From NCBI GenBank assembly GCA_011391125.1, contig JAABRE010000032.1, forward strand, positions 1 to 53,099: a DNA stretch of 53,099 nucleotides. The letters are read 5' to 3'. The DNA comes from Synechococcales cyanobacterium S06. GTDB lineage: Bacteria; Cyanobacteriota; Cyanobacteriia; Cyanobacteriales; JAABRE01. The translations under genes and the position numbers were made by a program. Each line of letters starts with the position of its first letter. Position 1 is the first letter of the stretch. The notes beneath the pieces are model-generated. The model saw only the letters and a program-made list of their open reading frames with translations, was not told the DNA's origin and ran no database searches. Below, in pieces: positions 38,500-41,080 of this stretch.

Positions 38500-40902
38500 T
38501 TATTCCTCAGTTTTCACCACATTAAGATGACCAATTAAAGGTAATTTGCGCTCATAAATTCCCATGGCTTCCAAACAGTTATTAATCCCAGAAACTGCTT
38601 CGTTATATTGGTTAATTTGCTGCTTAATTTCTGTTAATAAAGCCTCATTTTTGGCAATTTTTTCTGAGGCTTCTTTTTGCAGAACTTTCTCTAAATTTTC
38701 CCTTGCTAAACCGTATTGCTGCAAAATTTCATCCGCTAAAATTTCCGCCATGGGTAATAACTGACTTTTCAAAGTCTTATTAATGGCAAGGCCAAAAGTT
38801 TCGCTAATTGTTTTCTTCACTTTTGGCTCAATATCTAACTTTAATAATTGACGAATTGCTGGCTCACATTGCACAATACTTTCAACGCCATAACCTTGGC
38901 CAACTTCCTGTACAATTTGACGGAATTGATAGAGAGAAAATGTACCATCATCATAAAAACGTGGGCTTTCTCTTACATATTTATCGCACTCAGTTTTTGC
39001 CTGACTTGATAAAGCAATGATGACAATTTTTTCTAATTCATTTAACTGATCTTCCATGCCAGCATCACTACCCAATAAACGGTACAATTCGCGATAGTAT
39101 TCCTCCTTTTTGATCTGCTCTTTTAAACGTAGGAAAAAGTTTTTAGCGACTATTTCGGAAAACTCGACCAAAACATCTTCCAACTCGTCGGCTAAATAAT
39201 ACAAAGCCTCGACTAAAACAGCCATTAAAGGTGCAGTTGCGTGACGGGGATGACTTAAAGTAGCGCGACTATAAGCATTTTTGACGGAAAATGTATTTAA
39301 TAATTCATCCATTCGACTAACCATTCTAGCCTTGAGCTTGGCAAAATCTTCCTCAAAATTAGCATCGTTATTATTAATCGCTGTATTGACCAGATTAGCA
39401 ATATGTTTCGAGAATTTCTTGCCAATGTCCTGTAACTGCTGATTTAAACGGGTTAATTCAAGGGATTTCATACCTTCAATTTCCCGGGGTTGACTGTCTA
39501 AATTGCGATATTTTTCCTCATAAAAGCGGGTTAAATTAATGCAAAGTGGTTGTAAATCATCGGCTAAAGTAGCAAATAATTGGGGGCGTTTTTCTTCGGT
39601 TAAATAACGAGTAATTCCCGTTCTAAACTCCTCAATTCCACTATCTTTAATCAATTGATCAATTAAAGGTTTACCCCACTCTGCTAAAATATTCACATAA
39701 TTCTCATTCGGAGTCAGATAACCATGAACAGAAACTTTAAAATTTTTACCCAACAATTTACCAGAATTAGCGCAATAATTATTAAATTCGCTGACAAATT
39801 GGGGTGTTTCTTCTTGGCCTCCCACGGACTTAACACTTTCGGCAAAAATTGAGTCTAAACCAAATCGATCTTGACTACTTGTCTGCTTGATTTGACTGCC
39901 ATAAAACCCTAATAAACCACTGGTTTTGTATATCCTAGAACTATCCCTAAATTGAGTATTAATTAGGTCATCTAATCGCTGTCTTAATTGTCCAGCATAC
40001 CAGGTTTGATCGATGCGATTAAACACATGAAAAACCCGATCGCGAATACTCAAATTAGAGCGCATTGTCTCAATTAATTCGGTTTCTTCTGTGATTAAAT
40101 CCCCCGCAGAAGCAGGTTTTAAAACCATGACAACAGCAGATGTATCAGGGTTTTCCAGCTTGCGATAAATCAATTCTGCATCCTTTTTAACGGGTGCATC
40201 AATCCCCGGAGTATCGACTAAAATGTTACCATCTTCTAATAAGGGATGTTCACAATAATATTCGATCCTTTTTAACACCGCACTATTACTTCCTCTCCTT
40301 GCATAAGTAGCAGCTTCACTGAGGTTAGAAAAGTTAAATTGTGCCATAGAAAAGGTGTTATTTCTATTCTGATCGATTCTGTCTTTATTATGAAGATAAC
40401 CCTCTAATAATAACTGCAAAGCGTGTGCTTGTTTAGCCCGTTCCGACTTTTGATTTCCGCCCTCTTTTTCGATAATTTCTGAGGTGATTTTTTGCAGTAA
40501 ATTAATTACTTCTGGTTCATTAATATTCGGACTATTTGTTAAGCCTAATTTGCCACAAATAGCCGTAGCTTGTTGTCCAATTTCTATGCCACTAAGAAAG
40601 GTTAAAACTACTTTTTCCTCGTCTTTTTTCGCATAATGAATGTAACATTCTGTACCAGTGGCGTGACCTTCTGCACTATACAACAACTCCCTTTCTAAGA
40701 GTGCATTAATTAACATTGATTTTCCCGCACTAAAAGCTCCAGCGAAAACAATTTCAAAAGTAGGAGAAACTGCTTTTTTCAGTGAAGTTTCGATCGCACT
40801 AATATTTTGTTGACCCCGCAAACTCTGTTCTTGCTGCGATAACTCTAATAGGGTTTGGACGTTTTCTTGAAGATTTACACAGCTTGGATTGACTTCCGTC
40901 AT
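38500..40902 (-). CDS. Bacterial dynamin-like GTPase, SynDLP-type
   Basis: The 800-residue protein is a large GTPase expected to remodel or fuse membranes, plausibly the thylakoid. The P-loop is GAFSAGKS (55-62), the T-containing switch region follows near 81-84, DTPG is at 230-233 and the base-recognition NRID at 295-298. The rest is long helices (bundle/stalk). Cys 8 and Cys 776 near the two ends match, as I recall, the positions of the intramolecular disulfide in Synechocystis SynDLP (C8-C777). Two KGK genes follow on the same strand. No transmembrane paddle is obvious. Confidence 0.85.
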   Translation of the reverse strand: MTEVNPSCVNLQENVQTLLELSQQEQSLRGQQNISAIETSLKKAVSPTFEIVFAGAFSAGKSMLINALLERELLYSAEGHATGTECYIHYAKKDEEKVVLTFLSGIEIGQQATAICGKLGLTNSPNINEPEVINLLQKITSEIIEKEGGNQKSERAKQAHALQLLLEGYLHNKDRIDQNRNNTFSMAQFNFSNLSEAATYARRGSNSAVLKRIEYYCEHPLLEDGNILVDTPGIDAPVKKDAELIYRKLENPDTSAVVMVLKPASAGDLITEETELIETMRSNLSIRDRVFHVFNRIDQTWYAGQLRQRLDDLINTQFRDSSRIYKTSGLLGFYGSQIKQTSSQDRFGLDSIFAESVKSVGGQEETPQFVSEFNNYCANSGKLLGKNFKVSVHGYLTPNENYVNILAEWGKPLIDQLIKDSGIEEFRTGITRYLTEEKRPQLFATLADDLQPLCINLTRFYEEKYRNLDSQPREIEGMKSLELTRLNQQLQDIGKKFSKHIANLVNTAINNNDANFEEDFAKLKARMVSRMDELLNTFSVKNAYSRATLSHPRHATAPLMAVLVEALYYLADELEDVLVEFSEIVAKNFFLRLKEQIKKEEYYRELYRLLGSDAGMEDQLNELEKIVIIALSSQAKTECDKYVRESPRFYDDGTFSLYQFRQIVQEVGQGYGVESIVQCEPAIRQLLKLDIEPKVKKTISETFGLAINKTLKSQLLPMAEILADEILQQYGLARENLEKVLQKEASEKIAKNEALLTEIKQQINQYNEAVSGINNCLEAMGIYERKLPLIGHLNVVKTEE

Positions 40903-40992
40903 ATTGCCTCAATTTTGTTGTAAGATATATTTTTGATTGTGACATCACGGGAGCGCTTTAGATCAAAGTTTAATAAAAATTAACATCAAATG

Positions 40993-41058
40993 GTAAGGTG
41001 GGCAGTTAATTTGTATTTAAGTGGTAAGTAAAAAACTTAAAATAACTGCCCATCCTAC
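40993..41058. repeat. Inverted-repeat element related to family C
   Basis: GTAAGGTGGGCAGTTA and TAACTGCCCATCCTAC pair at 14 of 16 positions around a 34-bp centre. The sequence lies across the apparent 5' extension of the YqhA reading frame, which is why I use the later ATG at 41081. Confidence 0.75.
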
Positions 41059-41080
41059 ATTTTTCAACAAATACAAAACC

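Follow-up and report, generated by a model that had tools for sequence, protein, structure and literature searches.

The closest described relative of the dynamin treated here is SynDLP (Slr0869) of Synechocystis sp. PCC 6803 (PDB 7zw6, 9em7, 9em8 and 9em9), which has been assigned to the KGK clade of cyanobacterial dynamins and shows dynamin-type stalk interfaces (PMC10104851). The defining mark of this clade is a KGK gene downstream of the dynamin gene (PMC5827413). According to the SynDLP report, GTPase activity falls in the K61A variant, and exchange of the stalk motif HPRN for AAAA stops assembly beyond dimers (PMC10104851). A disulfide between C8 and C777 connects BSE1 and BSE3 of the bundle signalling element (BSE), is seen in the cryo-EM structure as well as on gels, and is dissolved by DTT in vitro (PMC10104851). 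The C777A variant retains oligomerisation while its kcat is down by almost 40% and its thermal stability is lower (PMC10104851). In the account given there, a BSE stabilised by a disulfide had not been described before, and the sole other disulfide named is that in the paddle domain of CtMgm1 (PMC10104851).

The same authors report both cysteines as conserved throughout the KGK clade and propose that the bond may form reversibly via the thioredoxin system. Conservation of the pair and the idea of redox control are hence both already in print (PMC10104851). A remark in the initial annotation, that such a bond would stand in a reducing cytoplasm, is likewise answered in print, since the authors point to disulfides in cyanobacterial cytoplasmic proteins (PMC10104851).

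A SynDLP ortholog in the window

The window comprises 53,099 nt of contig JAABRE010000032.1 from Synechococcales cyanobacterium S06. Its features are summarised in Table 1. The dynamin gene encodes a protein that aligns with 7zw6 (SynDLP) over residues 1-798 of both chains at 1077.2 bits (phmmer, PDB sequences). Two distinct PDB matches were obtained and both are Slr0869, the second being the 9em9 construct with 713.5 bits. Pfam detects Dynamin_N (PF00350, E 9.2e-16). The protein has the traits of the dynamin superfamily, namely a GTPase domain with the P-loop GxxxxGKS, followed by a long helical BSE and stalk. It also has those of the SynDLP-type KGK clade: full-length orthology, a downstream KGK gene and equivalents of C8 and C777. 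The gene is a full-length SynDLP ortholog and an ordinary member of the published KGK clade.

Table 1. Features of the dynamin locus. Positions refer to the window.
Feature	Position	Strand	Basis
SynDLP ortholog, KGK-clade dynamin-like GTPase, 800 aa	38500..40902	-	ORF with ATG start; phmmer; Pfam; predicted fold
P-loop GAFSAGKS, residues 55-62	40717..40740	-	K61 invariant in 30-row alignment
Cys8 codon TGT, equivalent to SynDLP C8	40879..40881	-	phmmer alignment; Cys in 158/166 orthologs
Cys776 codon, equivalent to SynDLP C777	38575..38577	-	phmmer alignment; Cys in 160/166 orthologs
Stalk interface-3 loop HPRH, residues 551-554	39239-39250		N in 164/166 orthologs, H in 2
KGK-domain protein, 107 aa	38108..38431	-	PF08872 E 2.4e-14; 69 bp downstream of dynamin gene
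Second KGK-domain protein, 95 aa	37716..38003	-	PF08872 E 3.5e-10
LexA-motif occurrence inside dynamin coding sequence	40805		proposed motif (PMC4759255)
Inverted repeat just upstream of dynamin gene	40988-41063		25-nt arms, 80% complementary, 26 nt apart

Cysteines are located at positions 8, 86, 116, 217, 377, 454, 639, 679 and 776. In the phmmer alignment Cys8 pairs exactly with SynDLP C8 and Cys776 with C777, whereby the offset of one in the numbering reflects a gap of one residue around position 122. The initial annotation had named this correspondence, and its numbering is right; no misalignment of the two cysteines with SynDLP was observed.

SynDLP and the window protein share the fold, 61-62% identity and the P-loop GAFSAGKS. 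They differ in the stalk loop, which reads HPRH in the window and HPRN in SynDLP, and in an additional Cys679 in the window, a position occupied by Ala in 163/166 orthologs. Altogether 22 residues of the window protein deviate where at least 90% of 166 orthologs agree. Thirteen of the 22 lie within residues 531-705, and evolution of this region may be rapid in the lineage of the window.

More distant dynamins share the general architecture. Like the window protein, Nostoc punctiforme BDLP1 (2J69) is of the dynamin-like GTPase type and has a neck and a trunk (Foldseek E 2.1e-12), but identity is only 13%, and it belongs to another clade (Tandem B) with another gene context (PMC5827413). Eukaryotic dynamin, Drp1 and Mx have the three-domain dynamin architecture in common with the window protein at 10-16% identity in the matched chains. 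A profile of alignment A1 (30 sequences picked by eye for diversity) was searched for other dynamin clades in 40 related genomes at E 1e-8 and returned just SynDLP orthologs, intact or in pieces, and a 32-residue fragment in genome G121.

Cysteine pair and KGK gene among orthologs

Matches at E 1e-20 or better were found in 91/386 genomes drawn from the phylum and in 44/60 related genomes. Named carriers include Gomphosphaeria, Hydrococcus, Crocosphaera, Microcystis, Picosynechococcus, Nostoc, Anabaena and Oscillatoria. ORFs were taken from stop to stop and hence keep their upstream residues. Merging by identity over a 700-residue core reduced 182 full-length loci to 166 distinct proteins. Nine loci with an ORF below 780 aa are excluded from the counts: L087, L199 and L200 are dynamin pieces cut at contig ends or on separate contigs, while L069, L095, L096, L097, L098 and L198 are broken by stops or frame changes. 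Seemingly the dynamin gene is dispensable in places, or some assemblies are faulty.

Both cysteines are present in 157/166 distinct orthologs. Neither is found in five (L068, L082, L088, L192 and L197), three have lost only C8 (to Ser in L034 and L107, to Val in L194) and one has lost only C776 (to Tyr in L167). A smaller alignment of 83 sequences gives 79 with both cysteines, three with neither and one without C8 only. Conservation in another genus, which the initial annotation named as support, is seen across many genera. The published statement is confirmed in one more genome, now with numbers.

The end regions holding C8 and C776 have a median column conservation of 0.70 and 0.67, respectively (166 orthologs). 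Judged against these medians, the sequence conservation of the two cysteines is more than chance. Other cysteines are at least as well kept, with Cys in 166/166 orthologs at positions 86, 217 and 639, in 163/166 at 454 and in 162/166 at 377. Owing to these five non-pair columns, cysteine conservation alone is uninformative in this dynamin.

A KGK gene lies within 1 kb downstream in 99/159 distinct orthologs having at least 1 kb of downstream sequence, counted with a home-made profile from the two window genes which divergent KGK proteins may escape. The remaining 7 of 166 orthologs have too little downstream sequence and stay outside this count. Among the 159, a KGK gene and both cysteines occur together in 91, both cysteines with no detected KGK gene in 59, a KGK gene without both cysteines in eight, and neither in one. 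A dependence of the cysteine pair on the KGK gene was considered and rejected, as eight of the nine losers keep the KGK gene and 59 carriers of the pair have none detected.

Coupled loss of the pair and readings of the proposed disulfide

Presence of C8 and C776 is associated over the 166 orthologs (Fisher p 3.3e-7, relatedness ignored). Ranked against 251 other variable columns conserved to at least 90%, C8 loss has its best partner in C776; conversely, C8 ranks first for C776 loss against 142 other columns with a conservation of 0.93-0.985. Parsimony on a FastTree tree places seven losses of C8 and four of C776 with three branches in common, leading to L088, to L192 and to the ancestor shared by L082 and L197. 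A fourth lineage lost C776 first, and L068 then lost C8 as well. When losses were placed at random weighted by branch length, 0.25 shared branches were expected on average, and three or more were reached in a fraction of 0.00035 of 20000 draws.

Each cysteine also tops the partner list of the other among the 154 homoplastic columns scored. The same branch-sharing score is attained by 27/11935 homoplastic column pairs, and an equal or higher simple correlation is found in 162/10153 pairs of similarly conserved columns, in some of them owing to changes across a whole clade. The top-correlated sets of columns (phi 1.0, fully correlated with one another) probably reflect shared ancestry. Taken together, these counts are good but not conclusive evidence that C8 and C776 function as one unit, in the way expected of a disulfide. 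The claim is limited by the four single losses, the 59 pairs without detected KGK gene and the five other cysteine columns that are conserved at least equally well. The count of coupled losses is a small addition to the published statement.

The structure of the window protein was predicted with AlphaFold2 from 47 sequences (mean pLDDT 81.6, pTM 0.60); alignment A2 consists of the window protein and 46 of 70 distinct named loci. Predicted helices span residues 398-420, 423-509, 514-537, 558-598, 680-728 and 730-779. In the model residue 8 is placed just ahead of helix 11-24, where the first BSE helix begins, and residue 776 sits in the last long helix (730-779), close to its end. The best solved match is again 7zw6 (Foldseek E 2.4e-71; Z 50.3, 783 aligned residues), whereby the rmsd of 11.6 means that the relative domain placement of 7zw6 is not reproduced.

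On the basis of sequence and of analogy to SynDLP, we consider it very probable that the window gene encodes a SynDLP-type KGK-clade GTPase with a Cys8-Cys776 disulfide. Cys8 at the start of BSE helix 1 and Cys776 at the end of BSE helix 3 would most likely form this bond within one molecule. The bond would clamp the bundle signalling element and so support stability and GTPase rate. By transfer from SynDLP, the protein would oligomerise via its stalk, bind anionic thylakoid lipids and remodel or repair membranes.

A further reading is that of a redox switch, as in the initial annotation. In a reversible form of it, thioredoxin would open the bond in the light, or oxidative stress would close it, and GTPase rate as well as membrane repair would thereby be tuned in vivo. 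This is conceivable, if rather unlikely. The drop of kcat by almost 40% in C777A, the sensitivity of the bond to DTT and the thioredoxin control raised by the authors (PMC10104851) speak for it, and the coupled loss indicates that the two cysteines count jointly. A static bond, however, leads one to expect the coupled loss equally well, and several lineages that lost both cysteines retain an open full-length gene. No in vivo redox study of SynDLP/slr0869 was found in the literature searched, which lacks most subscription journals; on thioredoxin together with dynamin it yielded work on a yeast only. What stands of the redox proposal is a pair conserved over many genera and lost together above expectation; the support drawn from conservation is not new (PMC10104851).

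The wider proposal, namely that the BSE disulfide is selected as a unit clade-wide and serves as a light- or stress-dependent switch in vivo which sets the GTPase rate of a thylakoid-associated dynamin, we regard as doubtful. If true, the lineages around L068, L082/L197, L088 and L192 would carry a redox-blind enzyme. If the switch is real, a bacterial dynamin that remodels membranes would be linked to the photosynthetic redox state. The double-loss lineages are a natural experiment, and comparison of their enzymes with those bearing the cysteines could distinguish a redox switch from a structural clamp.

Divergence or faulty annotation of sequences could also produce the coupling artificially, through wrong start sites, terminal alignment errors or long branches. 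Both cysteines are terminal, and it is at the ends that alignments and start calls are least reliable; L088, L197 and L082 are within the 20 most divergent of 166 sequences. Since these are three of the five double losers, part of the coupling signal may be general divergence. We consider such an artefact improbable: the stop-to-stop ORFs lost no upstream residues, conserved flanking residues align in the losers inspected, and L068 and L192 are only moderately divergent (ranks 64 and 42 among 166). That the cysteines are conserved for another reason, such as helix capping, packing, metal binding or partner binding, would agree with cysteines 86, 217 and 639 being invariant with no known disulfide and with C776 being kept without C8 in three lineages, but is very unlikely given the bond visible in the SynDLP cryo-EM structure and on gels (PMC10104851) and coupled losses that tie positions 8 and 776 specifically.

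Regulation and surroundings of the locus

In a Synechocystis lexA mutant slr0868-slr0871 are up about 6-16 fold, and slr0869 is grouped with its neighbouring genes as a single set of induced rows (PMC4759255). Control by SigC or SigE has been suggested as well (PMC8875361). LexA control in the window was considered and rejected: the proposed motif (PMC4759255) occurs three times against a chance mean of 3.31, with no occurrence upstream of the dynamin gene and one inside its coding sequence (Table 1).

Genes for a UPF0114 protein and a TPM-domain protein lie upstream of the dynamin gene on the opposite strand. The inverted repeat just upstream of the dynamin gene has the ends GTARGRTGGGCA. This 12-mer is present in 146 copies in the genome compared to two for the reversed control, and copies often form inverted pairs with a distance of about 55 nt. 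The GTARGRTGGGCA repeat is classed as a dispersed palindromic, MITE-like element.

Downstream, the two KGK genes of the window compare with runs of four or five tandem KGK genes behind the dynamin genes of L060 (L060:2220-7001), L078, L088 and L102. Three more KGK-domain matches are found in the same genome off the dynamin locus, on contigs C117, C76 and C82, one of them with an internal stop. Moreover, contig C81 of this genome carries a 643-aa ORF (L230:651-2582, minus strand) with a weak Dynamin_N match, possibly a second dynamin-family GTPase.
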